From Natronomonas marina (GTDB taxonomy: Archaea; Halobacteriota; Halobacteria; Halobacteriales; Haloarculaceae), in contig NZ_CP101155.1 in the NCBI RefSeq assembly GCF_024298905.1, positions 83,278 through 147,277 on the forward strand: a DNA stretch of 64,000 nucleotides. The letters run 5' to 3'. Of this stretch, positions 6,871 to 52,747 are shown one piece after another. The translations under genes were made by a program, and so were the position numbers. Each line of letters starts with the position of its first letter. The first letter of the stretch is position 1. The notes under the pieces were generated by a model. It searched no databases. It saw only the letters and a program-made list of their open reading frames with translations, and was not told where the DNA came from.

Positions 6871-6984
6871 CCATCCCTCGCAATATTCTCTCAAGATTGA
6901 CGACACCCACTTCTTCGTCATTCAGCCGGCCTTGCGAACTTCAGTTGACGATGAGATCGTAGCGCGACTCACTGTCCTCGGTCA

Positions 6985-11733: not shown

Positions 11734-11953
11734 TGATTCCCGACCATCTCAGCATTTCTTCCTCCATCTTCTCGACTGTTCCTGCGGCGCTTGAGGTATC
11801 ACCACTGCCAGCGTTACCCCACGAGTGAATTATCTCCGCACTTTGTGGGGTAACTCGCTGTCCTCCCTCAACCCACTTGCCGAAACGTCTACTTTGTGGA
11901 AAGCTATCAACGGGCGAAACCATTTACCGAGGCACTACGTATCCCACGATAGC

Positions 11954-16949: not shown

Positions 16950-19900
16950 ATGCCGACGCTCCCAGCCTTCACTCGAGCTTGGCTCTCGCCGGCCCCGCTC
17001 ACCGATGACCATACCCAGTCGCCGCCCGATGCAAGGACAGATCGTACTTCGCATTCGTCGCGGTCGGTAGAGCCGACCCAGACGTCTCGATCCACTCGCT
17101 TAGGCCGCCCGAGGAATCGCCGTCCCCTGTACGGTGTTCTGTTGACCCTGAGCGTCATCGGTATCCTACTCACGGCGGCCACTGGCCCAGCTCTCGCAGC
17201 ACACCCCGCTGACTCCACGAGTACCACAGAGAGCCAGGACCTCTCTTCTACTTCGCTGCAATCCACGAATACAACCTCGCCGTGCCAAACTCAGAACAAT
17301 AACTCGTACGGATGGACGGAACACTACGCGTGTATCCAAGTTCATCTCTACCAGCAGGATCAGGATCTCTCGATCTTCCCAGAAGACGCAACACAGGCCC
17401 GGGAAGCTGCGAAGAACGGAGAGTCGGCTGAAACCATCGAGGATTGGCTCTTCCGATACTATCGTACGGAGCAATACCCCGACTGGTGGATGCCGTCAGA
17501 GGAACAGATTGAGCAAACCCCGAAGCTCAAGCTCTACCCACTCACGAACGAAACAGTTCACGAGTACGAGACCACTCAATCTCTCTCCGTGTTTCCGGAG
17601 GAAGCTCGCGCCGTCCGATTCGCGGCAACTCATAACGCAACGGTGAACGAACTCCGGATGGCCCTCCTCAACTACTACGCCGTTCAGTGGGATCAGGGCT
17701 GGCGCCCGGACTCAGAATCATCCACGACCACCACAACCAACACAACTGCAGGAGGCGGCTCAAACGGAGGAGACTCGGAGGCTACGGCCAAGCCGAGTTC
17801 AAGCCCCGCTTGGTATGCTCCGTATCTTAGTGGGATCGTCGACGCCGTAAATCAATTTCGTGGATGGATGAGTGGAGTGCAGGAGTTCATCGGTGGGCTC
17901 CTCATTTGGAGCTTCAAGAATCCCATTATCGCAGGGATTGTCATCTTCACGTCTCTCGTCGTGTTCCTCCTTCTCGGAGTCGCACGGCGGATGCGGCGGA
18001 CGTGGACGGCGATGCTTGCGGTCTGGTCTCGATTCGTCCGCGCGATCGTCTGGGTGGCCGACACTATTGGCATCGGAACGATCCGGCGAACACAAATCAA
18101 ATTCTTCCGATTCCGTCGCACCCTCAACGTCTATGCTCACGCGTTCGCAGCGATGACTGGCTGGGCAATCCGCGAAGGGTTTCACCGTGTCGACCGTACG
18201 ATCACAGACTACGTCACCGACGAAGACTCCAGCACGTGGTCGTATATCGCACCACCCGCTCACGCACGCGCCAGTAGCGCAGCTGATGCCGCCGTCTCGG
18301 AGACAACGTATGCGAAGAGCAAGCGCCTCCTTGATCCTCTCGATGCACCAGCCGTGTACGAACTCGATGAGGATGAACCACCGCGACCAGGAGACGACCT
18401 CTGGTACCGCATTACGGCCTCCGATCAACCGGCCTCACCGGAGACAATCACTAAACAGATCGAAGGTCTACCCAATCTCACTGACGGGCTGGAAGTCATC
18501 ATCCGATCGGCACCTCATGACCCCGAGATCGGAGGAGAAGAAAGCGAGCTTCAAACTACTGAAGGCGATGGCACCCGACTCGCAATCGAGGTTCTAATCC
18601 ACTTCATCGAGGACGGCCAGACGAGCACGCTCGACCGGACGAAGCACAACTGGGTACGACAAGCCTTCGGTGGTCCCGACTACGACGTCACGCCCGTCTC
18701 GACGACGCTCCAGCGACTCCTCCGCGCCCGGCCGTACCGGCGGTGCAAGCATCTTCTCGGGAATGATGCGCCCCCATCAGCGACGTTCCCTTGGAGTAAC
18801 GCGCAATCATCGGACGCCGCGACAGACGGTGGGCGGACTATCGGCGAGGACACGCCCACACCGAGCGAACGCGCAGCTGCAGCCGAGGCGATTCCTCAAC
18901 GGTACTTCCGAGAGCATCTTGAGGATCAGTTCACTGCGGTCTGCCCGGAAGCGCCCGTGAGCTATCCACTCGGCTCCCGAGGAACCCGCCGCTGGGACTT
19001 CCTCCAGCGACTCAACGTCTTCGACGAAACCGCTGCCGAAGAAGCCCCTCCGATGGAAGCCGCTCTCGATGCCCTCCTTGAGACCGACGAACCCGCACTT
19101 CTCCGTGCCCGAATTACATCCGTAGGCGACCTTAGTGATCTCATTCGGCAGAAACTCGACGTCATCGAGGGTGAGGAAAGTACCCAGTTCGACAAACGAA
19201 CGAATCGCCGTGGGCGTAGCCGTGCGACACCAAGCTCAGGAGAGAATACCACCGAGGAAGACCGGGCTGCTGCTCGAGAACGAGAGAGTAGTCGGGTCCG
19301 TGGGGAAGTCGCGAGCGCGGAAGGGACACGGAACGAAGAACTCCAGAATAAGGGTGTAACTCGGAGTTTCAAAGTCACGATGGATGTCTTCACCCAACCC
19401 ACACCCTTCTTGAACGATGCTCTCGAAGAGACTGCTGGAGGGTCAGTTGAACCCTCCTCAGAGGCCCACCCCGTCCCCTCCCCCCTCTTCCATTCAGATG
19501 GGGACTCCACCTCTGCCTCGACAAATACGGCGAGTGACGGGGGCGTCTTCACCGAAGAACAGCCCGACCTCAACGAGATAGACAGTACTGCCGATCTATC
19601 TGGCTCCGACGCCGACATTGAGACCTTAGCGAGTCGTGGTGACACTCTTCGAGTGACTCCCGAGACGCTTGCCGAAGCCGCAGCCAGCCAGCGGACTACG
19701 GCTCGCGACGACGCCTGGCGGCTCGCAAAAACGTGGGCGACTGCTGCTGACGGCGAGTTCAACAAGCTCACTGAACCACCAGAGAACAGCCGCCTCGCAA
19801 AGTGGGCACGGCAGTTTGGATGGCGGAGACATACGCTCGGACAGCTCCGTGACTCGTACCGTTTCCACCGCGCTCAGGAGTATGCTGGTAGGGCACCCAC

Positions 19901-22900
19901 ATTCGGCCTACACTACTCTCTCCGTCGCCGCTGGCCGATCGTCCTCGCCGCCGCCGACGAACTCCCTTCGTTCACAGCACTCCCGAGTACCAGCGCTGTC
20001 TCGGACGACCTCGCAGCCCATATGGAACGCCAACTCTCCCACACAGCCCCACTCTCTGAACTCTCTCCTGCCGAGGACAACGAAATCATCGGTACGGACA
20101 TTGACGGGGCCACGCTCGGCTATGCGTTCGATCGTCTCCACACTCGCGACCTCGCTCGTCCCGTCAAACATCGCACGGACTATATGGACCGGTCGATCCT
20201 CCACCAAGGGCTCCCCGGCTCCGGGAAGTCTGTCGACCAAGCTCACGAGATCGTCGAGCGTCGGAAGGCCACGAACGGCCCCATCATCATCTACGCCGGC
20301 CCTGGCGCAAACGTCGGTGAACTCGCTGTGCGCGGTCTCTTGGATGAATTCGGCGAAGACTGGGTGCGCGAGCACGTCCACTGGTTCGATATGCCCGAGG
20401 TCCTCCCCGGACTAACGGTCTTCGACACACGACCCGCCCAACAGGCTGACGACGCCCACGGCAACCCCGAGGCCGCAGAGAGCGTCGCGACCGAAAACAT
20501 CTCTCCCCAGCGCCCTGATATCGCTTCCAACGACACCAGGTGGGAGACACACGGCTCACAGGTTATGCAGACTGTCCGGAAGATAGCCGAACTTCTGATG
20601 GGTGAGAGCGACTTCCAGAACGCCCGCGTGTCCCGTGATGTCCTTCGAGCCCTTGGAACAGCCGGTTTCTCACCGCACACATACCCGACAGGCGTCGACG
20701 GCACGCCTGCGTACCAGCGGAACGGTAGCGACACCAGCAGTAACACACTCCCAACTGCTGACGACCTCGTGAGCGGCGAAAGTCACTCCAATGATGGAAA
20801 TGAGGACGATTCAAGATCGCGCCAACCGACTGTGATGCCGTTCCGCTGGGGATACGACGCCAGCCCGTACGTCTACCCTCTCTGGCAGCTCCAAGAGCAG
20901 ACCCAGCAGGTCACCGAACTGACGAGGTTGATGGACCCGGACATCCCGATCAACCCCAAGGAAATACTGCCTGATCCGGGCTCGCACGCAATCAAGCGGA
21001 ATATGGAGACGCCGTTTAACAACCAACAGCACACCGCCCAGCAGATCCTCGGCGGTGTCACTAACCGTCTGAACGCGCTTACGACGGACGCCCGTCTCGC
21101 ACCCCTCTTCAATAACACGACCCGGCGGTTCTCCTTCGCCGACTTCCTTTCTGGCGACCGCCAGAACGACGTCCTCGTTTTCGACGTCGAGGACCTTGAC
21201 CCGGATGCCCAGCGTGACTTCGTCCTTACACACGAACTCCTAATGCAGTACGAACTCGAACTCTACAAGTCCTTCCTCAAAGAGGAGGCAACTGCGGACG
21301 ATTACTACGTCAGCGTCTTCATCGACGAGGCCGGCCGCCTCGTCGAGCCGGATGACCTTGCAAAGATGATCGCCGTCGCCCGCAACCACTCTGTCTCCCT
21401 CTCACTTGCCGTCCAGACGCCCGACCAGCTCTTCGACGCCGACACCGACAACAGTGTTGGTGACGACCCGACGTACGCCGAGATCATCGGTAATATTCAG
21501 ACGACCGTCGTGCGTGCCGGTGAAATCACGCGTCAGCAGGCAAAGGCGCTTTGTCCGGCCGACCTCGAGGTCGAGGACTTCATGGATCACGTCCGCGATC
21601 TCCCCGTCGACCACCGGCTCGTCCAGTATCCGACACCTTCCGAAGGAACACGGTCTCAGACCATCGAAATCGCCCGCATTCCCCTTCCGAACTGGCATCA
21701 GGATGCCGAGGAAGCCCCCGAAGGATACGATTCTCGCGAAGATTTCGAGGAGGCCTTCCGAGAGGTTCGCGCCGATGTCATCGACCAGACGAACGAAGAG
21801 TACGGAATCCCCGACGACGAGTCAGAATCGGCTGTCCGTAACCGGGCGATTCTCAACATCCCCGAACTCGCCCACCATCTCACAATAGACGACCCACTCC
21901 TCCCGGTTGTCCTCGCGTGGGCGACTTGGATAGTCGCTCGTGACCCACCCAACGGGCCCGGTGAAGAAACTCTGCACAGCGTCTCCAACACCGACAGCAA
22001 GCTCCCTGACCTCGAAGACCCAGTTGAACCAAATAATGATTCGACGATAGAGGACTCCCCGGCTGAGGAAGTCAGCGCGATAGATGTCCTATCGGACGAT
22101 GCAGGACCCGATGAATACACAGCTGAATCGGTATCTACCAGTCGCGAGAACGATTCTCCATCCACTACGAGCGAGCAGCCAGATACGCTGTTCGACTCAG
22201 GTGGGTGGGCTCGCGACCAGTGGGATGAGGCGAAGACCGAGCTCACCCAATCCAATACCGAGCGCCAGACTCCTCCCTCGGCCGCTGAGAGCTCAGGCCC
22301 TGCGTCCAGTCTTCATCACGTCCTGAAGGGCAGTATGACGACTGACGAGTGGGAGGAGCTTACCGACCTCCTCGAGAAGGGGAAGTCGCTTTCCCCAGAA
22401 GAATGGGCGATTCACACCGACCTCCCGACGTACCGGAAAGACGAGGAATCCATCCAAGCCCGTGCGCTCAACAGCCGTGTCGCGACTCTCCTCAACCAAG
22501 GTATCCTCACCGAGGATGAAGTGGCCCGGATTCAGGAACTCATCGATCTCGCACGGGATACCGGGAACTGGCCACCGACTGCGGTTCGTGATCGTCTCGA
22601 CACGGAGTCCGAAACTGCGCCAGCAGACAAATCGTCTCCCGAACAGCAAAGCGCAACTGTGGATAACGAGAGTGTGTCCGCGGCGATCGAACGCCGCCGG
22701 ACCAGTGAGAGAAATTCTGTTGGGATCGACCCGTTCGATGGGGAGGAACCACGACCCGGAACGTACCGCTGGGTGCGCCTTGACGAGATGTACCGCCGGC
22801 TTCGCCTCGAAGTCGAGAAAGTCCTCGCCACAGAGGGCCTCAACGAGGGAGAACGTAATCGTCGCCGCGATGCCCTCCCCTCGCTCAAGGCGTGCGCCGA

Positions 22901-24986
22901 TGAGATCGAGGCGTTAGGCACCATTATGACCCATCGGGGCGTCGCTGGCGACACTCCCATCCCGGAAACAGACGGTATCTTCGAGATTGAACTCGCGAAG
23001 CACCGTGACGACGTCCCCGGCGACGAGGGCTACGCCATTCGGTTGACTCCCGAGGGTGCTCGTCTCCTTCTCGAAAACGTGTTTTCGACTGGCTGGGTCG
23101 CAACCGCTGGGACCGATACTCACGATACCGGCCTTCGAGACGCTATGACGGCACTCGAAGACGCAGTCCCCACCCGAGTCAGTGGCCGGATCATCGACCA
23201 AGACACCGGGGACATCCCGGACGCCGTCCTCACAGTCTTCGCCAGCGAGCCTACGGAGTGCTTCGCTGACGACATCATCTCATGCACAGTCGAAGAGGAG
23301 ACCGACCCACGTCGACACCCCACGAAGAAACTCCGTAACCTCAAGAAGGCGCTTAACACTACTACGAAGAGTGGCGAATGTCGCCTCCCCATCTTCGTCG
23401 CCGAAACGCCGTGGGACGAAGACGCGGGGTGCCCCGACCTTGGACCTGCAACCGCATTATCGAACATCCTCCGTGATCCGATGAACACTCAGTGGTCGGG
23501 TCGCCGGTTCTACTCGCAATCGAACACGCCAATCGAATTCGACGGCGGCGCCCGCGACGGCGGTGTCACCGCTGTCGTCCCCCGATCGATCGAAGAGGGC
23601 GCAGGCACGTCAATCTGGATTCGCGACCCGGACCCCGACTCGAACGATTGCCTCCTCGTCGACCCGACTGCCGACGACATCGGCCACCCCGACGACGAGG
23701 ATATTCACCTCCGTATCGCCCCCGGTGACTTCCAGAACCTCACTCCTTCGAGCATCCCGTACCGGGCTACCTGTCCCCCGGGAAGTGCAAACGAGTCAGC
23801 TCGCTACATCGTTGAGACTCCGGGAAGCGAGCAGACGTACAAGTACGAGACGGAAGAGCGGTTCCGTGAGGATTGGGTCCGCGTCAACAAGCCATTCGTA
23901 CCCGACATCAAGTTCCGGCACCCGGACTATCCGGAAACCGCATATGCCATCCTCGTCCGATACGAGCTGCCCCGCGCCGGCGACGACGCACAGGCACGTA
24001 TTGCCTGGTTCGATCATCGGACCTCGGGCGACGAGGAGATGGGGACGCTTCGGCCCGTCGAGGACCTCATCGAAGCGATTCAGACGGGCGAACTCAAGCC
24101 GGCGTCTGCTGGCCCTGGAACGGCACCCGAGAGGACTCACGAAGACGAAGTCTCGACCGACGAAGCACAAGACTCTGAAGTGGATGAGGAAGACACTGGC
24201 GCGTCATCATCGACGGACGAGGCACCAGACGAATCCACTCCCGAGCCATCCGACAACAAGGACGAAGAGCTTGACGGCGATGATACTGACACAACGCAGT
24301 CCGAGGAGGGAGAGACAGACGATACTTCCGAACCACTCCAGGATGAGGGGAAAGCAGCTACCGCCGCGTTCATCGCGGCTTACCTCCGTCCTGCACCGAA
24401 CAACGTCGTGGACGTGGATATCGCCTTCGACCGTTGTCAGGAATTCGCGAGCACGCACAACCTCGTCTCACCAGAATCAGAGGACGAGTTCGCAGAAACG
24501 ATCGATTCCCTCTTCGATGCGTTCGACACGGACACCGGAATCGACGGAGACCTCTTCGACATCGATCGCGACGTCATCAGTGCCCTCGAAGAGGGATTCA
24601 ATATTGTCTCAACGTCAGGTGGAAACGAAGACAGCACTCGAACCGTTATATTGGGTGTGAAGATGGTTGATCCCACAGAAGAAGACACGTCGTTCTTGAC
24701 GGAAGCAGCGCCCGAGCAGTCGGCAGGTGGTGCGGCGTTCATTGCGAACCAGCTCACGTCCGACCCTGACGGAGCGCTTCCGAGTTCGGAAACCTATGAC
24801 GAATACGTCGACACCGTCACCGACTGGGGATTCGAGTCTCTCCCTGACCGAGGTTCGAGTGTGACGTTCAAACGGTTCCTCCAAATCTGGGGTGCGGTGC
24901 TGTTCGGCGTCTCGGTCGAACGGAAACGCCGGCGGATCGACGGGTCGCCTACGCGGTGCTATACGCACCTCGAGTGGCGCGAGTAG
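16950..24986 (+). CDS. Giant membrane protein with a VirD4/TraD-like coupling ATPase domain
   Basis: 2678 residues. A signal or anchor segment at about 50-75 is followed by an exported-type region with Asn-X-Ser/Thr sites. Two hydrophobic segments lie at about 305-345. Then a long cytosolic part: about 350-1080 polar and low-complexity; Walker A GLPGSGKS at about 1087-1094; Walker B VFIDEAGRL near 1457; and a Gln-containing sensor strand SLAVQTPDQLF just after. This order is that of VirD4/TraD coupling proteins. After residue 1600 the sequence alternates acidic linkers with small domains (a VSGRIIDQDTGDIPDAVLTVF beta segment near 2070) and ends in a helical domain. The usual coupling protein has 500-1000 residues, so this is a very large fusion. 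A TATTTTA box lies about 45 bases upstream of the ATG. Confidence 0.8.
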   Translation: MPTLPAFTRAWLSPAPLTDDHTQSPPDARTDRTSHSSRSVEPTQTSRSTRLGRPRNRRPLYGVLLTLSVIGILLTAATGPALAAHPADSTSTTESQDLSSTSLQSTNTTSPCQTQNNNSYGWTEHYACIQVHLYQQDQDLSIFPEDATQAREAAKNGESAETIEDWLFRYYRTEQYPDWWMPSEEQIEQTPKLKLYPLTNETVHEYETTQSLSVFPEEARAVRFAATHNATVNELRMALLNYYAVQWDQGWRPDSESSTTTTTNTTAGGGSNGGDSEATAKPSSSPAWYAPYLSGIVDAVNQFRGWMSGVQEFIGGLLIWSFKNPIIAGIVIFTSLVVFLLLGVARRMRRTWTAMLAVWSRFVRAIVWVADTIGIGTIRRTQIKFFRFRRTLNVYAHAFAAMTGWAIREGFHRVDRTITDYVTDEDSSTWSYIAPPAHARASSAADAAVSETTYAKSKRLLDPLDAPAVYELDEDEPPRPGDDLWYRITASDQPASPETITKQIEGLPNLTDGLEVIIRSAPHDPEIGGEESELQTTEGDGTRLAIEVLIHFIEDGQTSTLDRTKHNWVRQAFGGPDYDVTPVSTTLQRLLRARPYRRCKHLLGNDAPPSATFPWSNAQSSDAATDGGRTIGEDTPTPSERAAAAEAIPQRYFREHLEDQFTAVCPEAPVSYPLGSRGTRRWDFLQRLNVFDETAAEEAPPMEAALDALLETDEPALLRARITSVGDLSDLIRQKLDVIEGEESTQFDKRTNRRGRSRATPSSGENTTEEDRAAARERESSRVRGEVASAEGTRNEELQNKGVTRSFKVTMDVFTQPTPFLNDALEETAGGSVEPSSEAHPVPSPLFHSDGDSTSASTNTASDGGVFTEEQPDLNEIDSTADLSGSDADIETLASRGDTLRVTPETLAEAAASQRTTARDDAWRLAKTWATAADGEFNKLTEPPENSRLAKWARQFGWRRHTLGQLRDSYRFHRAQEYAGRAPTFGLHYSLRRRWPIVLAAADELPSFTALPSTSAVSDDLAAHMERQLSHTAPLSELSPAEDNEIIGTDIDGATLGYAFDRLHTRDLARPVKHRTDYMDRSILHQGLPGSGKSVDQAHEIVERRKATNGPIIIYAGPGANVGELAVRGLLDEFGEDWVREHVHWFDMPEVLPGLTVFDTRPAQQADDAHGNPEAAESVATENISPQRPDIASNDTRWETHGSQVMQTVRKIAELLMGESDFQNARVSRDVLRALGTAGFSPHTYPTGVDGTPAYQRNGSDTSSNTLPTADDLVSGESHSNDGNEDDSRSRQPTVMPFRWGYDASPYVYPLWQLQEQTQQVTELTRLMDPDIPINPKEILPDPGSHAIKRNMETPFNNQQHTAQQILGGVTNRLNALTTDARLAPLFNNTTRRFSFADFLSGDRQNDVLVFDVEDLDPDAQRDFVLTHELLMQYELELYKSFLKEEATADDYYVSVFIDEAGRLVEPDDLAKMIAVARNHSVSLSLAVQTPDQLFDADTDNSVGDDPTYAEIIGNIQTTVVRAGEITRQQAKALCPADLEVEDFMDHVRDLPVDHRLVQYPTPSEGTRSQTIEIARIPLPNWHQDAEEAPEGYDSREDFEEAFREVRADVIDQTNEEYGIPDDESESAVRNRAILNIPELAHHLTIDDPLLPVVLAWATWIVARDPPNGPGEETLHSVSNTDSKLPDLEDPVEPNNDSTIEDSPAEEVSAIDVLSDDAGPDEYTAESVSTSRENDSPSTTSEQPDTLFDSGGWARDQWDEAKTELTQSNTERQTPPSAAESSGPASSLHHVLKGSMTTDEWEELTDLLEKGKSLSPEEWAIHTDLPTYRKDEESIQARALNSRVATLLNQGILTEDEVARIQELIDLARDTGNWPPTAVRDRLDTESETAPADKSSPEQQSATVDNESVSAAIERRRTSERNSVGIDPFDGEEPRPGTYRWVRLDEMYRRLRLEVEKVLATEGLNEGERNRRRDALPSLKACADEIEALGTIMTHRGVAGDTPIPETDGIFEIELAKHRDDVPGDEGYAIRLTPEGARLLLENVFSTGWVATAGTDTHDTGLRDAMTALEDAVPTRVSGRIIDQDTGDIPDAVLTVFASEPTECFADDIISCTVEEETDPRRHPTKKLRNLKKALNTTTKSGECRLPIFVAETPWDEDAGCPDLGPATALSNILRDPMNTQWSGRRFYSQSNTPIEFDGGARDGGVTAVVPRSIEEGAGTSIWIRDPDPDSNDCLLVDPTADDIGHPDDEDIHLRIAPGDFQNLTPSSIPYRATCPPGSANESARYIVETPGSEQTYKYETEERFREDWVRVNKPFVPDIKFRHPDYPETAYAILVRYELPRAGDDAQARIAWFDHRTSGDEEMGTLRPVEDLIEAIQTGELKPASAGPGTAPERTHEDEVSTDEAQDSEVDEEDTGASSSTDEAPDESTPEPSDNKDEELDGDDTDTTQSEEGETDDTSEPLQDEGKAATAAFIAAYLRPAPNNVVDVDIAFDRCQEFASTHNLVSPESEDEFAETIDSLFDAFDTDTGIDGDLFDIDRDVISALEEGFNIVSTSGGNEDSTRTVILGVKMVDPTEEDTSFLTEAAPEQSAGGAAFIANQLTSDPDGALPSSETYDEYVDTVTDWGFESLPDRGSSVTFKRFLQIWGAVLFGVSVERKRRRIDGSPTRCYTHLEWRE

Positions 24987-25553: not shown

Positions 25554-26246
25554 GTACCGATGTGTTCCGGCGAGCGGGTACCCTGGCAGCGGGTACAGGC
25601 TGGCCCCCTGGGCGGTCGTCGAAGACGAGTGTCTGATGCGTATCAGATTGTGGAGAAGTCGGTAGCCGAAGCCGAGGTGAATAGCCGTTGTGTGTCGCGT
25701 GGAGAGCGCGGCCTGTCGTAACGTAGGAGCTGGTGGGTGGCGTCGAGGTGTAGCATCGAGCGCGCGTGGGGAACATACGGCTTTGCGTACGAGCGAGTGG
25801 GAGTGGATGGTCGTGTCGCGGTGGTGCCTACACTAGGGTCTGCTGGCTATCGCACGGGGGCGTCAGGGTGCGTATCTCAAACAGGCTAGGGACGTGCTGC
25901 GTATCGCGGCTCTCGCCTCGTGGTTCGTTCTCAGCGTGAGGATTGGGCACGGTGACGTCGACTTCGCGAGGGGCTGTCGGCTGTACTCGAGGCGGGGGGG
26001 TCGCGCCGTCGTGAGACGCCGTGGGCTGTCGATAGAGCATAGTGGTGTGGCCTCGGCGGCCGAGTGGTCGCTGTCGCCACCGCGTTCCGGCGTGACGGCC
26101 GTCGGCTCGCTGCTCTGGCGCGTATGGATGCCCAATCGGTGTGTCTCGAGAAGGGTGCCGCGCGCGTCGGGGTCGCGCGCGCTTTGGATCGAGACCGCCG
26201 CGACGAGCAGAGCTCGTCGGACGGTCTCCGTGGGTGAATTAGGACC
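25554..26246. other. GC-rich gene-free stretch
   Basis: About 690 bases with open frames on both strands caused by high GC. The reading frames give arginine- and proline-rich translations unlike the acidic proteins of the window, so I call no gene. Nothing repeated was seen apart from short local GC hairpins. Confidence 0.5.
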
Positions 26247-26289
26247 GCGTCGTAGCGGCGGCTGATTTCCGGGACCTGCTCCACACGCT

Positions 26290-26363
26290 CTGGCCGCTGA
26301 CGGCGGGCCACGATTTCGGGGAATCGCGTAGCTTTCCCCGAAATCGGCCGCCTCACCGGCCAG
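26290..26363. repeat. Hairpin unit A
   Basis: A perfect 13-bp stem (26311-26323 with 26334-26346, CGATTTCGGGGAA) encloses a 10-base loop. An outer arm CTGGCCGCTGA (26290-26300) pairs with 26353-26363 at 10 of 11 positions. This unit lacks the inner ACCCGC stem. Weaker symmetry continues to about 26247 and 26400. Confidence 0.7.
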
Positions 26364-26391
26364 TCCGTGGGAGCCGATGTCGTCCACTCAC

Positions 26392-26527
26392 CCGCCGAAG
26401 TCCGCGGATTGCGCGGTCACGAGACACCGACGCGAACCGGACCCTACCCGCGAGCGCAACCCGCTCGCGGGTCCCTTCCAGTCCGCGACGGCGCCTCGTA
26501 ACACCGCTCATCGAGCGGATTCGGCGG
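26392..26527. repeat. Hairpin unit B
   Basis: Inner stem of 11 bp (26446-26456 with 26462-26472), loop CAACC. Outer CGCG arms with two mismatches. A far outer arm from CCGCCGAA (26392-26399) pairs with TTCGGCGG (26520-26527) and much of the sequence between. The left arm overlaps the right end of unit A. Confidence 0.7.
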
Positions 26528-26614
26528 CCTCGGGAGACATCGGGTCGTGCTACGACCAGGTTTCCTCACTCGGTCGCCCCCCTTGCGCTGGCGCGTGCAG
26601 TAGCGCGCGCCGCG

Positions 26615-26730
26615 CACTCACCGGGAGGGGCCGCCGGAGCCACCAGCGATTTCCGCGGACCCTACCCGCCCCCACCGGGGCGGGTCCCTTCCACGGAAAT
26701 CGGGCGCCTCTGTCGGCCTCCCGGCGAGTC
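26615..26730. repeat. Hairpin unit C
   Basis: Core CGATTTCCG (from 26647) with CGGAAATCG (to 26702). The inner stem ACCCGCCCC pairs with GGGGCGGGT across a CACC loop. An outer arm CACTCACCGGGAGG pairs with a CCTCCCGGCGAGT segment, with small bulges. Confidence 0.7.
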
Positions 26731-26798
26731 GGGGCGAAGCCGGGCACGGGGCCTGCCGAGCCGAAGGCACGGGAGATCGCGTCGCTCACTCCGTTCGC

Positions 26799-26934
26799 CT
26801 GAGTCATACGTCGCCAGCACGCTGAACCGGACCGGGTCACGATTTCGCGCGGATACCTTCCCGCGCTCGCAAGCTCGCGCGGGCCCCTTCCACACGAAAT
26901 CGACCGGTTCAGCGCGCGGCGACGCACGACTCAG
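26799..26934. repeat. Hairpin unit D
   Basis: Three nested arms. CTGAGTC-N-T-N-CGTCGCC pairs with its complement at the right end (15 of 17). GCTGAACCGG (26821-26830) pairs perfectly with CCGGTTCAGC. The core CGATTTCG (26840-26847) pairs with CGAAATCG (26895-26902). The inner stem is CCCGCGC with GCGCGGG. Confidence 0.75.
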
Positions 26935-26943
26935 CCCGGCCAT

Positions 26944-27075
26944 ATGCGGCCGATTCATCTGCGTTCACCGACCCGCACCCGGACCTCGATTCCGGCAGAC
27001 ACTACCCGCCTTCGGCGGGTCCCTTCTCCCGGAATCGGCCGTGCGCGGCTGGTTCACGTTGTTCATCGGCCGCAT
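26944..27075. repeat. Hairpin unit E
   Basis: Outer arms ATGCGGCCGAT (26944-26954) and ATCGGCCGCAT (27065-27075) are perfect. Core CGATTCCGG (26987-26995) pairs with CCGGAATCG (27029-27037). Inner stem ACCCGCC (27004-27010) pairs with GGCGGGT (27014-27020) around a TTC loop. Confidence 0.75.
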
Positions 27076-27206
27076 CTGCCGGGTTCGCGACTCCCGTACC
27101 TCGGCGGGCAGGGCCCCGCACCGGGCTTCGTTCTGGCGGTACGGGCCACCCGCCAGAAGCCGCCGAGCAAAAATTAATTTCTTTCCTCTTAAGCGTCCAC
27201 GGGACG

Positions 27207-27334
27207 GGCGGGGGAAGCCGCCGTGCCGTTCCTGACCTGGCACGATCTCAGCGGACCCTACCCGCGCTCACACGTTCGCGCGGGTCCCTTCCACTGACAT
27301 CGGCCAGCTCACGACGGCAGCCGGCTCCCCTGCC
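27207..27334. repeat. Hairpin unit F
   Basis: The core at 27243-27302 pairs CGAT-C-TCAG with CTGA-C-ATCG. The inner stem ACCCGCGC pairs with GCGCGGGT. Outer arms GGCGGGGG...GCC and GGC...CCCCTGCC pair with gaps. The TCAG/CTGA change relative to other units keeps pairing on both sides. Confidence 0.7.
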
Positions 27335-27340
27335 GGTACC

Positions 27341-27380
27341 CGACGGCGCTCGCGCTATCACACACGCGCGAGCGCCGTCG
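27341..27380. repeat. Perfect 14-bp hairpin between units F and G
   Basis: CGACGGCGCTCGCG (27341-27354) pairs without mismatch with CGCGAGCGCCGTCG (27367-27380) over a 12-base loop. It differs from the array core and stands near the middle of the 27182-27515 segment. Confidence 0.7.
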
Positions 27381-27497
27381 TTCCGACAAACTCGAGGCCC
27401 TGACGCGGGCCGCGATTCCGCGGAGATACTTCCCGCGCTTCGCGCGGGCCCCTTCTCCACGGAATCGGCCGCCTCAGTACCTCTCGCCGTGTCGGAA
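27381..27497. repeat. Hairpin unit G
   Basis: Outer arms TTCCGACA (27381-27388) and TGTCGGAA (27490-27497) are perfect. A middle arm GAGG-CCCTGA-GCGG pairs with its partner. Core CGATTCCG (from 27413) pairs with CGGAATCG (to 27467). The inner stem CCCGCGC pairs with GCGCGGG over TTC. Confidence 0.75.
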
Positions 27498-27560
27498 GGA
27501 ACGCTTAAGAGGAAACCATCCCCCCCACTTGTCGGATATGAACTGCACGTCTTGGGGAGA

Positions 27561-27699
27561 CCACTTGCCGGATGCCTCTGGCGCGTGCATTCCCCTGATC
27601 GCGGCCGCCTTCGGCAGACACTACCCGCCTTCGGCGGGTCCCTTCTCCCGAACGCGCCCGCGTCAGGGGTGCACCCGCCGGACGCCTTCCAGCTTGTGG
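27561..27699. repeat. Hairpin unit H
   Basis: The inner stem ACCCGCC (27623-27629) pairs with GGCGGGT (27633-27639) over TTC. The core arm CCTGATCGCGG...TTCGG pairs with CCGAA...CCGCGTCAGG at most positions. Further arms (GGCGCGTGCA, GGATGCC) also pair with their right-hand counterparts. Confidence 0.7.
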
Positions 27700-27800
27700 C
27701 GCTGGGCGCGGGCCTCGATTCCGGCAGACACTACCCGCGGCGCATCCGGTCGGTGCGCCGCGGGTCCCTTCTCCCGAAATCGGCCGCGCCAGCGGCCAAG
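27693..27800. repeat. Hairpin unit I
   Basis: Core CGATTCCGG (27716-27724) pairs with CCGAAATCG (27774-27782), one mismatch. The inner stem of 11 bp (27733-27743 with 27755-27765, ACCCGCGGCGC) is perfect. The outer arm from 27693 pairs with the segment ending 27800. Its left arm overlaps the right arm of unit H. Confidence 0.7.
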
Positions 27801-27938
27801 ACGCACAGTCCCTTCCAACTGTTGAGGGGGATTGAAATCATAGAGTCAGGTAGCCCGTGACAGGGCGTCGGGCCGTCGGCAGGCGGCGCCGGGCGGTCGG
27901 CGTGCGGAACGTCGGCCGCTCCGGCGCGCCCCGCGGTG

Positions 27939-27967
27939 GGTTTGTTCGCCCCTCCGCGGGGTGAAGG
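27939..27967 (+). promoter_or_regulatory. Promoter-proximal motif before the OB-fold gene
   Basis: GGTTTGTTCGCCCC is followed by GCGGGGTGAAGG, so the C-run can pair with the G-run. It has the same layout as the motifs at 29706, 30544, 30652, 32632, 36475 and 44802. Here the first credible ATG is about 85 bases downstream, which would leave a leader. Confidence 0.45.
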
Positions 27968-28052
27968 GTGTACGAATACACCCGTCGGTCGGCGGTCAGA
28001 AGACGGGCGCGATGGAGCGCGCCCGACAGGGGATCACTCCCCGGATACAGCA

Positions 28053-29483
28053 ATGTCTAGTTTCAACTCAGGGCAAAAAAGCCCATCGGCGGTTGGACAG
28101 CCTGACAAGTACGACGAACTCGAGATGGATCTGCTCTACAGCAGTCCCCATCTGGAGAACGGCGATAACGTGGTCGGTGTGGACATCGACAAACGGCCCC
28201 CGACCCCGAACGACGAACCGGTCGAGGACAGCCAGGGGCAGGAACTTGTCCCCGGAAACTACGCGCGAGAACGCTCGGCGCGGATGGACGCGCAATACCG
28301 GGCGGCTGCCTCACAGCACGAAACGTCGGACAAGGACGACCAAGCTGACGAGACGGGGCTCCCCCACAGGCGCGAGATGACCGGCCGCGCAGGTGGCACC
28401 TACGCTGACGTTCAGGCAGTGATGCACGGCCAGCAGTTGGGCGACGTCGTCGAGGGCGATGTCGGCGAGTTGGTGCGTGGTGTCTCCACTGGGGTCTACT
28501 GGGAGCAGGCACTCGCGGAAATGGACGTCCCCGAGCCTCGACGCGACCTGCAAGCGCCGTTCGCGGAGGTGTCCCCAGAACACTACACGCTGGCGACTGA
28601 AGAGCGAATGCGCGGGGAGTTCGAGGCCGATGAGCGGAACCGCGCGAAGGCGATCGCGGCAGAGGTGGCGGGCATCAACCGGGCAGCGCGGTCGCGGGAC
28701 GATATGCGGACGCGGCAGCCGATTCGCCACTCCGTCTCAGAGAGTGACGACCCGTGGGAGGGCCCGCCGGCAGAGACGGTCGGCGTCAAGCGGGTCGACC
28801 CGGCAGACGACGAACCGGTCACGACGACGTCCGTGAGTGACGCCCCTGACCCACGGGCGTCACTCGACCAGGAGACGCTCGCTCAGGTGAACAAGGGTGC
28901 CGCGCGACTGGCCGAGCACTTCCAAGGCGAAGCAGCGATGTCCAGAGCGACGTTCGGGAAGTGCATCGCCCGGCACATCCAGGACGGGTCGGACGTGATG
29001 AACGCGACGATCGCCGTCAAGGAGACACTCGAGCGGATGTTCGAGATCAAGCAGCCCATCGGGTCGATCGATCCCTACGAGCAGTGGGAGACGACGGTCG
29101 AGGCGGAGGTGACCACGCTGTGGACGCCGAAGCATCGGTCGCAGTACCAGGTGGGACTGGTGCAAGACGAGGCCGGCGACACGGCGAAGTTCACGGTCTG
29201 GTTCGCGGCGGGTGACAAGCCGACGCTCGCGGTGGGCGACCGGATTCGGGCGGAGCGGGTGCGTGTCAACGCCTACAAGGGTGATGCGACCCTGGCAGTC
29301 GTCGGTGATACGGACCTCACCATCCTCGACCGGGGTGACGGCCCGATGACGCGGCGGAAGCGGCAGTCGGATGATCCGACAATCGCTCCGTGGTCGGCCG
29401 ATAGCGACCAGCACGCGTGGATCAACCACATCGATATGGAGCGGGCGATCGAGGTCACGCTCGGACGGCGGGACGACGAGTAG
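28053..29483 (+). CDS. OB-fold ssDNA-binding protein, RPA-like
   Basis: 476 residues from ATG 28053 (MSSFNSG). The 39 codons upstream in frame run over the promoter motif and look non-coding. The C-terminal part (about 330-440) is an OB-fold: WETTVEAEVTTLW, then KFTVWFAAGDKPTLAVGDRI and a closing strand, as in single-stranded DNA-binding proteins and RPA. The N-terminal 300 residues are charged and helical with no motif I know. It is the first gene after the hairpin array and opens a run of replication genes. A role in coating ssDNA produced at the array is a reasonable inference. Confidence 0.75.
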   Translation: MSSFNSGQKSPSAVGQPDKYDELEMDLLYSSPHLENGDNVVGVDIDKRPPTPNDEPVEDSQGQELVPGNYARERSARMDAQYRAAASQHETSDKDDQADETGLPHRREMTGRAGGTYADVQAVMHGQQLGDVVEGDVGELVRGVSTGVYWEQALAEMDVPEPRRDLQAPFAEVSPEHYTLATEERMRGEFEADERNRAKAIAAEVAGINRAARSRDDMRTRQPIRHSVSESDDPWEGPPAETVGVKRVDPADDEPVTTTSVSDAPDPRASLDQETLAQVNKGAARLAEHFQGEAAMSRATFGKCIARHIQDGSDVMNATIAVKETLERMFEIKQPIGSIDPYEQWETTVEAEVTTLWTPKHRSQYQVGLVQDEAGDTAKFTVWFAAGDKPTLAVGDRIRAERVRVNAYKGDATLAVVGDTDLTILDRGDGPMTRRKRQSDDPTIAPWSADSDQHAWINHIDMERAIEVTLGRRDDE

Positions 29484-29487
29484 GCCA

Positions 29488-29505
29488 TCGCTCGGCCGCT
29501 TTTTT
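29488..29505 (+). terminator. T-run transcript end after the OB-fold gene
   Basis: Six consecutive T at 29500-29505 follow a GC-rich segment directly after the stop at 29483. T-runs are usual archaeal termination signals. The remaining stretch to 29743 holds a short GC hairpin and no gene. Confidence 0.45.
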
Positions 29506-29743
29506 GCGTGTGCCGCGAGTAGTCCTCAGGTAGGCATCGCAACCGGCTGGTTAGTGTGTGGCTCCCGGCACCCACTACCCACCGCCCCGCCCACCGCTCC
29601 GTGCTCGCGACGCGAGCGTCGCTGCGCGCGCAGCCACAACCTCGACAGCACCGCGTGGCCCGTGGGGGCGCTCGGCGACGCCATCACCCGTGGCGACCGA
29701 CGTGAGTTTGTCCCTCCCAACAGGGGGTGAGGTGACTTCACAG

Positions 29744-30767: not shown

Positions 30768-32333
30768 ATGGCAGTAGCTAATTCCATTCCCGACGAAGCG
30801 GCAGAGCTCGCTGACCAATTCCCGGACGAAGTCGACGTAGATGAAGCAGAGATCGCCGAGCGATTCTCGATGCTCGTCGACGAGTACCGCGTCCCGAAGG
30901 ACGAGGCCGTCCGCACCACGCGGAACTACTTCCTCGACGCGTACGGACTCGAGTACGACGATCTGGACGGCCAGAGCGGTTCTAGCGGTCCGGCCGACGA
31001 GCGCGAGATCGCGACCGTCGAGGGTCCGAACGAGTGGCTCTCGGTCACGGCGAAGGTCGTCCAGCTCTGGGACAACGACGTCGACTCCATCGCTCAGGTC
31101 GGCCTCATCGGTGACGAGACCGGCACCATCAAGGTGACCGTGTGGGAGTCCGCCGACGCACCGACCATCGAGGAAGATGGCGTGTACCGATTCGAGAACG
31201 TCGTCTCCGACGAGTACCAGGACCGACTCAGCGTCCAGGTCAACTCCGCGTCCGACATCGTTCCCGTCGACGACGAGGACGCCGCCGACCTCGACGTCGG
31301 CTCGACCGATGTCGAGGCCGCTGGCGCAGTCGTGGCTGTCCAACCCGGAAGCGGCCTCGTCAAGCGATGTCCCGGCGAGGACTGCACGCGCGTTCTCCAG
31401 AACGGGCGCTGCTCCGAACACGGCGAGGTCGACGGCGAGTTCGATCTCCGCGTGAAGGCGGTCATCGACGACGGCCAGACGGCCTACGACGTCCTCTTCA
31501 ATCAGGAAGCCACCGAGGATCTCACCGGCATCACCATCGAGGAGGCCAAGCAGATGGCGATGGACGCTCTCGACACGAGCGTCGTCGCCGATGCCGTCGA
31601 GGAGGAGATCCTCGGACATTCCTACACGGTCTCAGGGCCGGTCATCGGCAACTACCTCGTGGTCAACGACTGTGAGGCGGGCAACACTCTCTCCGAAGAC
31701 GCTGTCTCGCCCGGCAGCGCAGCGAATGGTGACCGCGAGGTCGCCAAGCGCGTCTTTGCCGAGGAGTTCAACAACGCAACAAGCACCTTCACCGAATCCG
31801 ACGAAGACCGTGCGCCCGTGTACTCGCTGCTGCCGTCGGGTGAGAAGGCCAATCGTGTCTTCGTGGTCGGAACGCTGACCGAGACGACGGACGTCGGCAA
31901 CGACTCCGAGTACTGGCAGGCCCGCATCGTGGGCCCGACCGGGACGTTCTTCGCCTATGCTGGGCAGTACCAGCCCGAGGCCGCCAGCGTCCTGCGGAAT
32001 GCGGAAGCCCCGGCGTACGTCGCAGTGGTCGGCAAGGCGCGCACCTACGAGACCGACGACGGTGACATCAACGTCTCCATCCGCCCCGAGTCGATCAACA
32101 TTGTCGACGGTGAGGCTCGGGACGCGTGGGTCGCGGAAACCGCCGAGCAGACGAAGGCACGGCTCGAGGCGTTCGACCCCGACGACCCCACCGAGAACGA
32201 CGACGAGCGCAACTACGATGCGATGGCGGTCGACCTCTACGACCCTGACATCGATGCCTACGAGGCGATGGTCAGCAACGCTCTCGACGACCTCGAGGCT
32301 GGCGAGATCAACGAAGGAGAGGACGACGAGTAG
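30768..32333 (+). CDS. rpa: Replication protein A (RPA), haloarchaeal single-subunit type
   Basis: 521 residues. A helical N-terminal domain (about 10-60) is followed by a first OB-fold (about 85-170: SVTAKVVQLWD, GTIKVTVWESAD). A zinc site lies at about 200-217 (C-x4-C, then C-x2-H) within a second OB-fold. A third OB-fold occupies about 365-450 (VGTLTETTDVG...FFAYAGQYQP). This is the layout of haloarchaeal RPA, which binds ssDNA in replication and repair. A chromosome normally has its own copies, so this is an element-borne version, preceded by two tandem regulatory motifs. Confidence 0.9.
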   Translation: MAVANSIPDEAAELADQFPDEVDVDEAEIAERFSMLVDEYRVPKDEAVRTTRNYFLDAYGLEYDDLDGQSGSSGPADEREIATVEGPNEWLSVTAKVVQLWDNDVDSIAQVGLIGDETGTIKVTVWESADAPTIEEDGVYRFENVVSDEYQDRLSVQVNSASDIVPVDDEDAADLDVGSTDVEAAGAVVAVQPGSGLVKRCPGEDCTRVLQNGRCSEHGEVDGEFDLRVKAVIDDGQTAYDVLFNQEATEDLTGITIEEAKQMAMDALDTSVVADAVEEEILGHSYTVSGPVIGNYLVVNDCEAGNTLSEDAVSPGSAANGDREVAKRVFAEEFNNATSTFTESDEDRAPVYSLLPSGEKANRVFVVGTLTETTDVGNDSEYWQARIVGPTGTFFAYAGQYQPEAASVLRNAEAPAYVAVVGKARTYETDDGDINVSIRPESINIVDGEARDAWVAETAEQTKARLEAFDPDDPTENDDERNYDAMAVDLYDPDIDAYEAMVSNALDDLEAGEINEGEDDE

Positions 32334-34193: not shown

Positions 34194-35782
34194 AAACCAT
34201 CTACCCTCTTCAGCCGGTTTATGAGTCCTGTGCCACCTGCACAGCAGTCTTTAACACACCACCGTGTGATGGTTTAGAAGGATGAGACGCGTCAATACAT
34301 TCGATGTCTGTCCTCACTCCCGTAGGGACAAGCTTGCACTCATTGAGCTGTTGGACGCGTCCACCGCGTGCTGGAACCAAGTCCAGTATGCTCGCCGTCA
34401 AGCCTTCCTCAATAGGAAAGAATCAGAGGGCAACGCAACTGTCTCACAGCTTAAACAGGCCGTCAAGAAGACCGCTACCCAAGAAGAATACCGTCAGAAG
34501 TACATTCAGCAACTCTCCTCAAGCATCCCCCAGCAACTTGTCCAGAAGAATTGGCAGACGTGGGACGGCTTCTTCGAACTCTTGAAAAAATACCGTAACC
34601 CGGAGGATGACAGCGTGACAGACCGTCCCGGCCTACCGGGATACTGGAAGGAGGACGGCGTCCGAACGCTCCATACGCTCCTCCGCAACGATACATATAC
34701 GCTTTCGCTAGGCAAGCGTTCGCGACTGCGAATTCCACTGGGAAAGGAGCTCAAGGAGAAGTACGGCATCGGATACCACGAAAAACTCACACTCGAAGTT
34801 CGTGGCCGCCCGCACTGGGAGGGCAAGCAGGGCCGTCTTGAACTCGTCTACGACCGTGAAACCGAATCGTTCACCGCACATCAGTCCGTTGGCGATGACA
34901 CGCATACACCGTCGAGACGGACCTCTACTCACTCCCACTTACTGGCCACTACGGACGGCGAGGACGTGGTGGCAGCGGTGGACATCGGTGCGAACACCCT
35001 CGCTGCCTGTACGACGAGTCGAGGTGACCACTGCTTGTTCCACGGGCGCCCATGCTTCGAAGACTTCCACGCATACACCCGAGAAATCAGTCGTCTACAA
35101 GCTATGCTCCCCGATGGCCGGTACTCAAGCAAGCGTATTCGGGAAGTGTACCGGAAGCGTAGCGTGAAACGCGATCACGCGATGGATGCACTCATCCAGC
35201 ACCTCGCGGAGTGGTTGGCAGAACACAATGTTACCGAGTTGATTGTCGGCGATCTCTCAGATGTCCTCAAAACGCACTGGTCGGCGCGGGTGAACGAGAA
35301 AAATCACTTGTTTTGGGCACATGGGCGATTTCGTCGCCGGTTACACGAGGTCGTAGAGGCTGAGTACGGGATTATGGTGCATGAAAAGTCCGAGGCAAAC
35401 ACGTCCTCGCGGTGTCCTCACTGTGGAGCTGAGAACGTTCATCGAAGCGGTGATCTCTTGCAGTGTCGAACGTGCGGCGTGGAAGCGCACGCAGATGTAG
35501 CGGGAAGTATGAATTTCCTCGTCACTGAAACCGCAGTAGAGTATCGTGATTTGAATCAAGGTGGGTCGATGGCTCGGCCCGCGGCTTCCGGTCAGAACAG
35601 GCTGGGAGACGCAGTTGCGTGCTTCGAGTGGGACGATCACTGCTGGCGACAGCGTGATCACTCGACCAAAGAGGAACCCGCAAACCACACCCGTCAGGGG
35701 AAATTTCCCTCCGGTGACCCAGGCACGGCCTGATTCACTCACGCGGAGGATTCCACGGCATGACCGCCGTGGAGGAAGTCAA
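34194..35782 (+). mobile_element. IS200/IS605-type TnpB-only element
   Basis: Carries tnpB alone without a TnpA Y1 transposase. The left end has an 8-bp inverted repeat AAACCATC (34194-34201) with GATGGTTT (34268-34275) and a CACAC/GTGTG hairpin (34255-34268). The right end has a 7-bp stem CCACGGC/GCCGTGG (35753-35772) followed by AGGAAGTCAA, as in haloarchaeal IS1341-type elements. It is inserted just downstream of pcn and just before the 35800 gene. Exact ends are my estimate. Confidence 0.65.
34282..35733 (+). CDS. tnpB: TnpB-family RNA-guided nuclease homologue, RuvC-II Glu position altered
   Basis: 483 residues. RuvC-I Asp is in AAVDIGANTLA (about 234). The zinc ribbon is CPHC...CRTC (about 378-398). 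RuvC-III Asp is in HADVAGSMNFL (about 404). At the RuvC-II strand, where TnpB usually has a catalytic Glu (pattern VEDL), this protein reads LIVGDLSDVL, so Gly stands in the Glu position and Asp follows. Related haloarchaeal proteins often look the same, so this may be a family with a moved catalytic residue, or a dead nuclease. The 3' part and the downstream hairpin would encode the guide RNA. Longer than the usual 400 residues. Confidence 0.85.
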   Translation: MRRVNTFDVCPHSRRDKLALIELLDASTACWNQVQYARRQAFLNRKESEGNATVSQLKQAVKKTATQEEYRQKYIQQLSSSIPQQLVQKNWQTWDGFFELLKKYRNPEDDSVTDRPGLPGYWKEDGVRTLHTLLRNDTYTLSLGKRSRLRIPLGKELKEKYGIGYHEKLTLEVRGRPHWEGKQGRLELVYDRETESFTAHQSVGDDTHTPSRRTSTHSHLLATTDGEDVVAAVDIGANTLAACTTSRGDHCLFHGRPCFEDFHAYTREISRLQAMLPDGRYSSKRIREVYRKRSVKRDHAMDALIQHLAEWLAEHNVTELIVGDLSDVLKTHWSARVNEKNHLFWAHGRFRRRLHEVVEAEYGIMVHEKSEANTSSRCPHCGAENVHRSGDLLQCRTCGVEAHADVAGSMNFLVTETAVEYRDLNQGGSMARPAASGQNRLGDAVACFEWDDHCWRQRDHSTKEEPANHTRQGKFPSGDPGTA

Positions 35783-35991: not shown

Positions 35992-36070
35992 TCCCCGCTC
36001 TCGTACCGCCCGGCCCCGGCTGCACCCCTGAGGTTAAACGTCCGGGCAACGCACTTTCGATTGATTGCCC

Positions 36071-36403
36071 GTGAAACCCTCTGCTGCTGCCCCCGCTGGT
36101 CAGATCCTCGCGTACAGCTGCCCCCGTTGCGAGCACAAGGGGATCTACTACTACACCGATCTCGCCCTCTACGACAACGACCGCGATCCTGGTGAGGACA
36201 GCATCCTCCCTGAGCACGCGCCCGCCGTCCCCGGCAGCGCGATCGACGCCGACGCCGATGCCATCGTCTGTCCGAACGAATCGTGTGGGCTCGTGCAGTT
36301 CCGCCATGTTGCGTTCGAACTCCTTCCCTCGACGGCTGTCCGCGCACGTCGCTCGACATCGGCGGACGACGGGACGAGCGCGCTCGTTGAGACTACTCCG
36401 TAG
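36071..36403 (+). CDS. Small zinc-finger protein
   Basis: 110 residues if GTG 36071 is the start (a TTG at 36065 is in the same frame). CPRC near residue 18 and CPNESC near 69 form a possible zinc ribbon with an acidic loop between. The tail is Ser/Thr-rich. It stands between the IS element and the helicase. One of at least four small zinc proteins in the replication part of the window. Confidence 0.6.
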   Translation: MKPSAAAPAGQILAYSCPRCEHKGIYYYTDLALYDNDRDPGEDSILPEHAPAVPGSAIDADADAIVCPNESCGLVQFRHVAFELLPSTAVRARRSTSADDGTSALVETTP

Positions 36404-36474
36404 TCGGCCTCGGGAACACCTCACTCCGCTCGTCGAAGCACCGTCATCCACGGCTCTCTGAGGTCTCGCACGGC

Positions 36475-52737: not shown

Positions 52738-52747
52738 GCTACCCCTG

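Follow-up and report, generated by a model that had tools for sequence, protein, structure and literature searches.

The window analysed here is a 64,000-nucleotide stretch (64 kb) of a 147-kb contig of Natronomonas marina (NZ_CP101155.1, positions 83,278 to 147,277). Between a gene for a giant VirD4/TraG-like protein (16950-24986) and a gene for an OB-fold protein (28053-29483) lies a GC-rich, noncoding array of nested palindromic units, which recurs identically on Halorarius halobius plasmid unnamed2 (NZ_CP101163.1). The comparative data suggest that this array is part of one large fold, carried by a single strand of the DNA and kept by selection.

Blast alignments against distant lineages cover 26230-27845 in Halosimplex pelagicum (L037) and 26185-27799 in Halohasta litorea (L039), with similarity ending at 26185-26250 on the left and at 27845 at the furthest on the right. 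Together with the consensus fold, these limits place the whole conserved folded block at 26185-27845 on the minus strand. The initial annotation had located it correctly, at 26247-27800, and the block is slightly longer than that range. Because similarity to the distant lineages stops sharply at both edges, the block is a discrete element of ~1.66 kb. Its 5' edge carries a conserved TATGAT (27837-27842, minus strand), identified in the alignments and present too in the diverged array of the relative G001.

A covariance model, R2, recovers exactly the nine units that the initial annotation had placed here, every one on the minus strand at E <= 0.01, and nothing elsewhere in the 64-kb window at that threshold; on the plus strand, units H and E leave two faint shadows, with E values of 0.16 and 0.21. 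R2 took over from a model (R1) that held just 9 pairs, and was built from 32 units of five lineages on a hand-set structure, towards which it consequently leans. The units, all minus-strand, are A (26308-26349; 30.6 bits), B (26425-26493; 48.1 bits), C (26644-26705; 72.6 bits), D (26837-26905; 66.5 bits), E (26984-27040; 76.1 bits), F (27240-27305; 74.8 bits), G (27410-27470; 64.9 bits), H (27605-27659; 62.7 bits) and I (27713-27785; 67.1 bits). Unit F is missing in Halohasta litorea and in genome G174.

As first described, the outer arms vary between units and pair within each. The shared core holds for most units, but not for unit A, a hairpin without the inner ACCCGC/GCGGGT stem or the CCCTT loop. 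The apical sequence of unit A is near-invariant in four of the five lineages, and its helix (helix 60) has changed on both sides in 19 of 40 pairs. The CCCTT that was read as unpaired is indeed a loop, but in most units it makes up half of a symmetric 4x4 internal loop, with CACT or CCCT opposite CCCT on the plus strand and AGGG opposite AGKG on the minus strand. Around unit E, the outer arms extend over 26962-27058 (minus strand) and place CGUGAACC (27058-27051) opposite GGUGAACG (26969-26962). These arms are predicted to form a tandem G.A motif, and the pairs flanking this predicted motif differ among lineages.

Conservation of a branched fold

The units lie in a row, as the term tandem array implied, but long-range helices tie I to H and G to F in branched domains. 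Domain 1 (27518-27832, minus strand) is closed around units I and H by helices 1-3, which join 27832-27796 to 27555-27518 and are double-changed at 11 of 32 pairs. Domain 2 (27182-27515, minus strand) is closed by helix 13 (27515-27499 with 27198-27182; 7 of 17 pairs double-changed, 96.1% of cells paired), which encloses units G and F and a hairpin at 27341-27380. This hairpin is a 15-bp perfect palindrome with a conserved loop, and its helix (helix 16) shows double changes at 6 of 15 pairs. The order of the domains is mostly, though not perfectly, kept across lineages; Halosimplex pelagicum, Halohasta litorea and G174 have an extra short hairpin. Because the domains keep a mostly fixed order and long-range helices join the units, "tandem units" understates the element, which is better modelled as one branched fold with linked units than as a row of repeats.

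The consensus fold, derived from five lineages, contains 641 pairs, with compensatory change at 220. The covariation test considered the 598 pairs inside the block and, to stay under a limit of 600 pairs, left out the 43 that lie in the 5' flank. Across nine sequences, which represent five lineages and not nine independent rows, 202 of the 598 pairs have changed on both sides and still pair, as against 62.6 +/- 6.0 in shuffles that ignore relatedness and 43-52 with slid partners, a control that favours a structure derived from the same data. The 63 helices are paired in 92.5% of cells (shuffled, 85.3 +/- 0.2%; slid, 36-42%), and 0 of 500 shuffles reach any of five covariation measures. Five relatives stand outside this alignment: G001, Salinibaculum sp. 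KK48, Halorientalis marina, G138 and G283. When pairs are instead taken from single-sequence folds, before any consensus, 1475 of 2285 double-changed cells are Watson-Crick, compared with 24-26% for slid partners. Selection for structure, which the initial annotation had proposed from the arms of this one array and had suggested checking by covariation, is thus borne out across lineages.

The fold energies are those of strongly structured DNA within the array. On the plus strand, an 800-nt stretch (26647-27446) has a fold-energy z of -14.5, whereas z is +1.8 for sequence immediately before it and -1.6 within the following gene (12 shuffles per sequence); a 1400-nt piece of the array gives -18.1 on the plus strand and -33.3 on the minus strand. 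Taken in aggregate, the comparisons support a large branched fold kept across lineages by selection for pairing.

The covariance-model search that had been proposed at the outset finds relatives of the array in 10 of 292 genomes of the haloarchaeal class (9 of 77 genera, the source genome included), under strict filters that drop weak matches. Six of these genomes have 6-8 units and four have one unit, and there is one array per genome. A DNA pattern scan locates ~99% identical arrays in Halobellus rufus, H. clavatus, Halorubrum sp. CSM-61 and Halosimplex salinum, and a single motif in KK48. More diverged arrays occur in Natribaculum breve (93%), Halosimplex pelagicum (72%, in a record titled chromosome), Halohasta litorea and Halorubrum laminariae (~71-76%) and G174 (68%). 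The array of N. longum was found in the plasmid collection, and Halorientalis marina has two weak R2 units upstream of its OB-fold gene (E 0.004 and 0.018). A single pattern match in an Armatimonadetes record (L041) was taken as chance.

Similar units in a row, with hairpins gained and lost between lineages, could also reflect mobile palindromes, akin to repetitive extragenic palindromes (REP) or miniature inverted-repeat transposable elements, that had built up in a plasmid intergenic region. attC sites and REP palindromes form arrays of imperfect palindromes with variable arms, and in this the block resembles them. It differs in that its orthologous units covary and stand in mostly fixed order, and in its lack of dispersed copies: with up to 150 top candidates scored per genome, every R2 match at E <= 0.01 falls inside the array in 9 of 9 genomes or records, with no solitary copies. 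Accumulation of mobile palindromes is therefore very unlikely, and a dispersed repeat was rejected on the same search. Recent unit duplication, the alternative named in the initial annotation, is not the explanation, because individual units have orthologs of their own in other plasmids.

Several other identities were considered for the array. A protein-coding reading of the putative open reading frames called over it, judged without a codon test, was set aside because changes preserve pairing and length differences among lineages are frequent. A viral origin was rejected: the phage collection gave no match, and two patterns had 0 matches in viral contigs. A known RNA family was rejected on 0 gathering-level Rfam matches in the window, where sub-threshold matches up to E 1 comprise just 6C and VA (E 0.06 and 0.31). 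The view that no haloarchaeal element of this type has been described holds for Rfam and for the literature in open-licence PubMed Central (PMC) articles, neither of which yielded a comparable element.

Polarity of the fold

Mismatches within the stems carry information on which strand folds, as an A.C mismatch on the plus strand is a G.T or G.U wobble if the minus strand is read. In long near-perfect stems, counted without an energy model, the plus strands of five lineages contain 67 A.C and 1 G.T mismatches (window, 18:1; Natribaculum breve, 10:0; Halosimplex pelagicum, 12:0; Halohasta litorea, 9:0; G174, 18:0). N. longum (A.C 14, G.T 1) was kept out of these sums as a near-duplicate of N. 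breve. The A.C mismatches are spread over many stems, although one position beside the inner module recurs in the four lineages shown. For comparison, the ratio is 103:99 in random sequence of equal dinucleotide make-up and 71:50 in the remainder of the window, and base composition alone gives an expectation of ~1.1:1.

Other measures lean in the same direction. Shuffle-corrected energies were used because window pieces in general lean towards the minus strand by composition; with this correction, the difference between minus and plus strands has z values of -5.5, -3.0, -3.4, -5.0 and -4.5 in the five lineages (12 shuffles each). Unpaired letters favour pyrimidines on the plus strand, and hence purines on the minus strand, in each of the 8 regions that were folded. 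Counted without an alignment, mismatches in energy-model folds of eight regions number A.C 56 and G.T 9; when this energy model is applied to the minus strand, they number G.T 40 and A.C 11. The alignment-based plus-strand count over whole folds leans weakly (A.C 754 versus G.T 611), and in a MAFFT alignment of the units (A3, minus strand) the two are about equal (A.C 10, G.T 7). The alignment-free count is preferred because the outer stems in A3 are partly misaligned. Among the relatives outside the covariation alignment, G.T:A.C ratios of 1:9 in G283, 2:7 in KK48, 1:6 in Halorientalis marina and 4:7 in G138 agree with the minus-strand lean. Together, these data support the minus strand as the selected object.

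This polarity bears on whether the block might act as duplex DNA. One possibility would be a double-stranded replication or partition origin, with palindromes that form cruciforms or serve as binding sites for a dimeric protein. Genes for RPA, PCNA and primase-like proteins adjoin the array, its inner stems are inverted repeats, and the cumulative GC skew stops falling for a while at ~24-32 kb. However, the skew pauses without reversing, and the units share one orientation relative to the next gene, which duplex DNA does not require. Nor does duplex DNA require any mismatch asymmetry, so the 67:1 ratio had already weakened this proposal, which is improbable.

Neighbouring genes and movement of a module

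The genes surrounding the block are of the kinds initially described. Upstream are a VirB4-like ATPase (11825-14593, plus strand; NF045971, 1e-42, under the curated cut-off) and the giant VirD4/TraG-like protein (plus strand), whose matches to TraG-D_C (2.2e-4) and NF045973 (1.2e-4) are both weak. Downstream are OB-fold/RPA, PCNA and primase-like genes. The first of these is a divergent, RPA-like OB-fold gene (plus strand; start at 28125 according to the annotation pipeline PGAP). Its product matches NF005553 (2.7e-10, under the curated cut-off) and PDB entry 2kbn (1.7e-4), has no Pfam match, and is, to judge from its family, likely a single-stranded DNA (ssDNA) binder. A second RPA (replication factor A; 30768-32333, plus strand) matches NF005553 at 1.3e-115.

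The position of the OB-fold gene is conserved. In each of the 10 R2-matching genomes (G000, G137, G174, G227, G276, G282, G284, G138, G001 and G283), an OB-fold relative begins no more than ~1.2 kb from the array and is encoded on the other strand, with E values of 4e-11 in G001 and 5e-17 in G283. It is also found beside the arrays of Halosimplex pelagicum (36% identity) and Halohasta litorea (35%). A VirB4-like match occurs in 8 of 8 records tested, in 7 of them on the array's own contig. The VirB4-like gene is ~12-35 kb from the array in six records; in the Halohasta litorea genome it is at the far end of a 297-kb contig.

Comparison with Natribaculum indicates that the block and the OB-fold gene move jointly. 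The array plus OB-fold gene (25874-29649) is 89% identical to Natribaculum plasmids of a different backbone, in which VirB4 is 26.5-27.3% identical to that of the window and the VirD4-like protein 24.5-25.3% over 277 residues. In 200-bp steps, the noncoding part is 90-97% identical and the OB-fold gene 70-93%. Among 239 plasmid records with a VirB4 match, identity above 60% is seen only in the near-identical H. halobius record. Since the DNA is 89% identical despite VirB4 proteins of ~27% identity, the block and the OB-fold gene travel as one 3.8-kb module between transfer backbones.

Other features of the plasmids were recorded. The window encodes two primase-like proteins (39209-40756 and 42941-44167; PHROGs DNA primase), a relative of which is found ~2.4 kb upstream of the array in Natribaculum. 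In record L034, a primase-like gene pair, read from translations, occupies 5032-7499, with a giant open reading frame directly upstream and the diverged G001 array downstream. A TnpB-like OrfB_IS605 gene (34282-35733) lies between the PCNA and helicase genes of the window, and the 421 bp at 36029-36449, before the helicase gene, are 84-85% identical to both Natribaculum plasmids, most of the surrounding DNA being dissimilar. The segment 61097-61365 matches two sites in the region of each Natribaculum plasmid, at 71-80% similarity. Defence-like genes extend over 49435-63717 and include a VWA protein (49435-52737), a SMODS nucleotidyltransferase (55128-56042) and an Mrr-type nuclease (62557-63717, minus strand). 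On the organism's own chromosome (G000:C1:3445586-3446072), seven copies of GCGGGTCACTTC stand ~79 bp apart on the minus strand, in a tandem repeat that looks unrelated.

Folded single-stranded DNA or structured RNA

The initial annotation offered two kinds of product for the array, ssDNA structures or tandem RNAs. That a structure is selected stands, and it is the structure of one strand; the word tandem, as described above, falls short of it. Known systems of both kinds offer comparisons.

Passages of two reports describe Frpo as a folded noncoding region directly upstream of an ssDNA-binding gene, in which the template, or transferred, strand folds (PMC9849209, PMC11541004). The block resembles the Frpo/ssi structures of F and ColIb-P9 in three respects: it is a folded noncoding region directly upstream of an ssDNA-binding-type gene, with the template strand folding; a specific strand, and not the duplex, folds; and a VirB4-like conjugation ATPase is matched in each record tested, in 7 of 8 on the array's contig. 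It differs in being archaeal, ~1.66 kb long and built of several domains and nine modules, whereas each Frpo is one stem-loop. The likeness is one of geometry, not of sequence or size. As a kind, the block would appear nearest to the Frpo/ssi structures.

Plasmid F provides a control for this comparison. The Frpo regions were taken from the annotation around ssb and from an assumed position of ygeA; the second region presumably carries a Frpo, given where we place ygeA. Both presumed regions (Frpo2/Frpo1) share the same stems and have the geometry of the block, in that structured noncoding DNA immediately precedes plus-strand genes (ssb in one case), so that the minus strand is the template. 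Their energies lean towards this strand (z -2.1 and -1.9; 20 shuffles), and at stem score 7 their A.C:G.T ratios are 4:1 and 4:2. Because the F control leans the same way, the strand signal of the block fits ssDNA as well as RNA. In the same plasmid (L137), stems upstream of ssb and the presumed ygeA have GCGGGTCCCTGC and GCGGGTGCCTGC arms that resemble GCGGGTCCCTTC of the units, probably by chance.

Over-structured noncoding DNA (z -2.6 to -6.5, by strand) likewise immediately precedes an OB-fold relative in five haloarchaeal plasmids that lack R2 hits. The minus lean is present in 5 of 5, with z values of -2.1, -0.7, -0.4, -0.5 and -2.5, three of them barely so. A Haloglomus region (z -1.2) was left uncounted, as its OB-fold relative is not directly downstream. 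A leading-region ssDNA function would be expected to produce such a pattern, in which a structure ahead of a gene for a protein like the single-stranded DNA-binding protein (SSB) keeps its position while its sequence changes.

The reading we favour, with confidence a little short of even, is that the block acts as single-stranded minus-strand DNA and is an archaeal counterpart of the Frpo/ssi leading-region structures. The minus strand would then be the transferred (or displaced) strand, and would fold ahead of complement synthesis. The folded arms, in which purine internal loops recur, may attract a primase or polymerase; two primase-like proteins and a TFB are encoded on the plasmid itself. 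RNA copied from the minus template could express the adjacent OB-fold protein, prime the second strand, or both. Sequence supports it through the covariation, the minus polarity in five lineages, the placement of the OB-fold gene, the co-occurrence of VirB4-like genes and the exchange of the module between backbones.

A number of observations weigh against this reading. Some concern polarity. At stem score 9 the F control has no lean (A.C:G.T 0:0 and 1:2), and in the five plasmids that lack R2 hits the two mismatches are about equally frequent (G.T 8, A.C 7, score 8). The energy bias is absent or opposite in three unit-bearing relatives (z of 0.2 in KK48, +2.8 in G001 and +1.0 in G138), and in G001 the mismatch ratio is reversed (G.T 7, A.C 3). 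As a control on the method, the mismatch test failed on 15 oriented haloarchaeal signal recognition particle (SRP) RNAs, known RNAs with short, interrupted helices (score 9, GU 8 and AC 7; score 7, 8:16). Rfam-annotated SRP pairs in two sequences give GU 29 and AC 19, the uncorrected energy comparison selects the correct SRP strand in 14 of 15, and E. coli rRNA has too few long stems to serve as a control for the mismatch test.

Others concern transfer and expression. KK48 is an exception to the gene context, as its next gene is no OB-fold relative. MOB-suite types three matching records as non-mobilizable. In a search of 12 records that covered PF03432 and not other relaxase families or the origin of transfer, oriT, this relaxase is on 0 array-bearing contigs; the three records that have it are two Haloarcula plasmids, neither with R2 hits, and a different contig of the draft genome G401. 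VirB4-like genes need not mean conjugation, because vesicle-spread haloarchaeal plasmids carry such ATPases too, according to a passage in PMC10818511. By eye, without a promoter model, no archaeal promoter or TATA-like box is evident inside the stems. Finally, a domain order conserved over 1.66 kb seems to exceed what a promoter or primer site would need.

The alternative is a giant structured noncoding RNA, transcribed leftward from ~27.83 to 26.19 kb as a chain of branched domains. In such an RNA, the AGGG/AGKG loop modules would hold several copies of one protein, perhaps the divergently encoded OB-fold protein, as a ribonucleoprotein, scaffold or sponge. This proposal is consistent with the minus-strand polarity and wobble signal, the number of helices and extent of their pairing, the purine-rich unpaired letters of the minus strand and the sharp ends of the block. 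Conserved junctions and the predicted tandem G.A motif are further points, an architecture of 1.66 kb with such junctions being RNA-like, and against Natribaculum the noncoding DNA is better kept than the OB-fold gene. On the other hand, the strand signal may not distinguish RNA from ssDNA, given the F control, and no TATA-like box is evident by eye upstream of helix 1. The spacing from TATA box to start is ~25 nt, and if TATGAT (27837-27842) were the box, the start would exclude the 5' arm of covarying helix 1. The RNA has no Rfam relative, and alone it would leave unexplained the other structured DNA upstream of the same OB-fold family. We regard a giant RNA as a close rival, slightly less probable than folded ssDNA.

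Among known RNAs, the nearest comparison is with GOLLD, ROOL and OLE. OLE is 610 nt and GOLLD often >800 nt, and the portions consulted of PMC12286853 describe ROOL and GOLLD as encoded in phages and prophages. The block shares with these RNAs a big, covariation-supported branched fold on one strand, first found in sequence. In contrast to these bacterial and phage RNAs, it is archaeal, plasmid-borne, longer and known from DNA sequence alone. The GOLLD, ROOL and OLE Rfam models have no match in the window, and the phage or tRNA context of GOLLD and ROOL was found neither in the phage collection nor in viral contigs nor in the window, which has 0 tRNA genes. A long RNA of a Lactobacillus salivarius megaplasmid is similarly plasmid-borne, and its deletion lowered the megaplasmid/chromosome ratio; as described in part of the report (PMC5643018), this RNA is 520 nt, bacterial and proven by RNA-seq.

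Combined into a sequence of events, the folded-ssDNA reading leads to a tentative proposal: the arriving minus strand would fold with its nine modules and start RNA synthesis, and the SSB-like protein would be made before the DNA is duplex. If the fold instead resides in a transcript, the product would be the giant RNA. We know of no account of how haloarchaeal plasmids with VirB4/VirD4-like genes transfer or of their first acts in a new host, and a search of open-licence PMC articles returned nothing on their transfer or establishment.

If the block acts as folded ssDNA, archaea would have their first leading-region system, in what may be the most elaborate folded DNA known, and the strand that folds would predict the entering strand, the location of the leading region and the first gene expressed. 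If it acts as RNA, archaea would gain a plasmid-borne RNA bigger than the ornate bacterial ones, and with it a new class of large RNA. On either reading, the block lends itself readily to tests of large single-strand folds.

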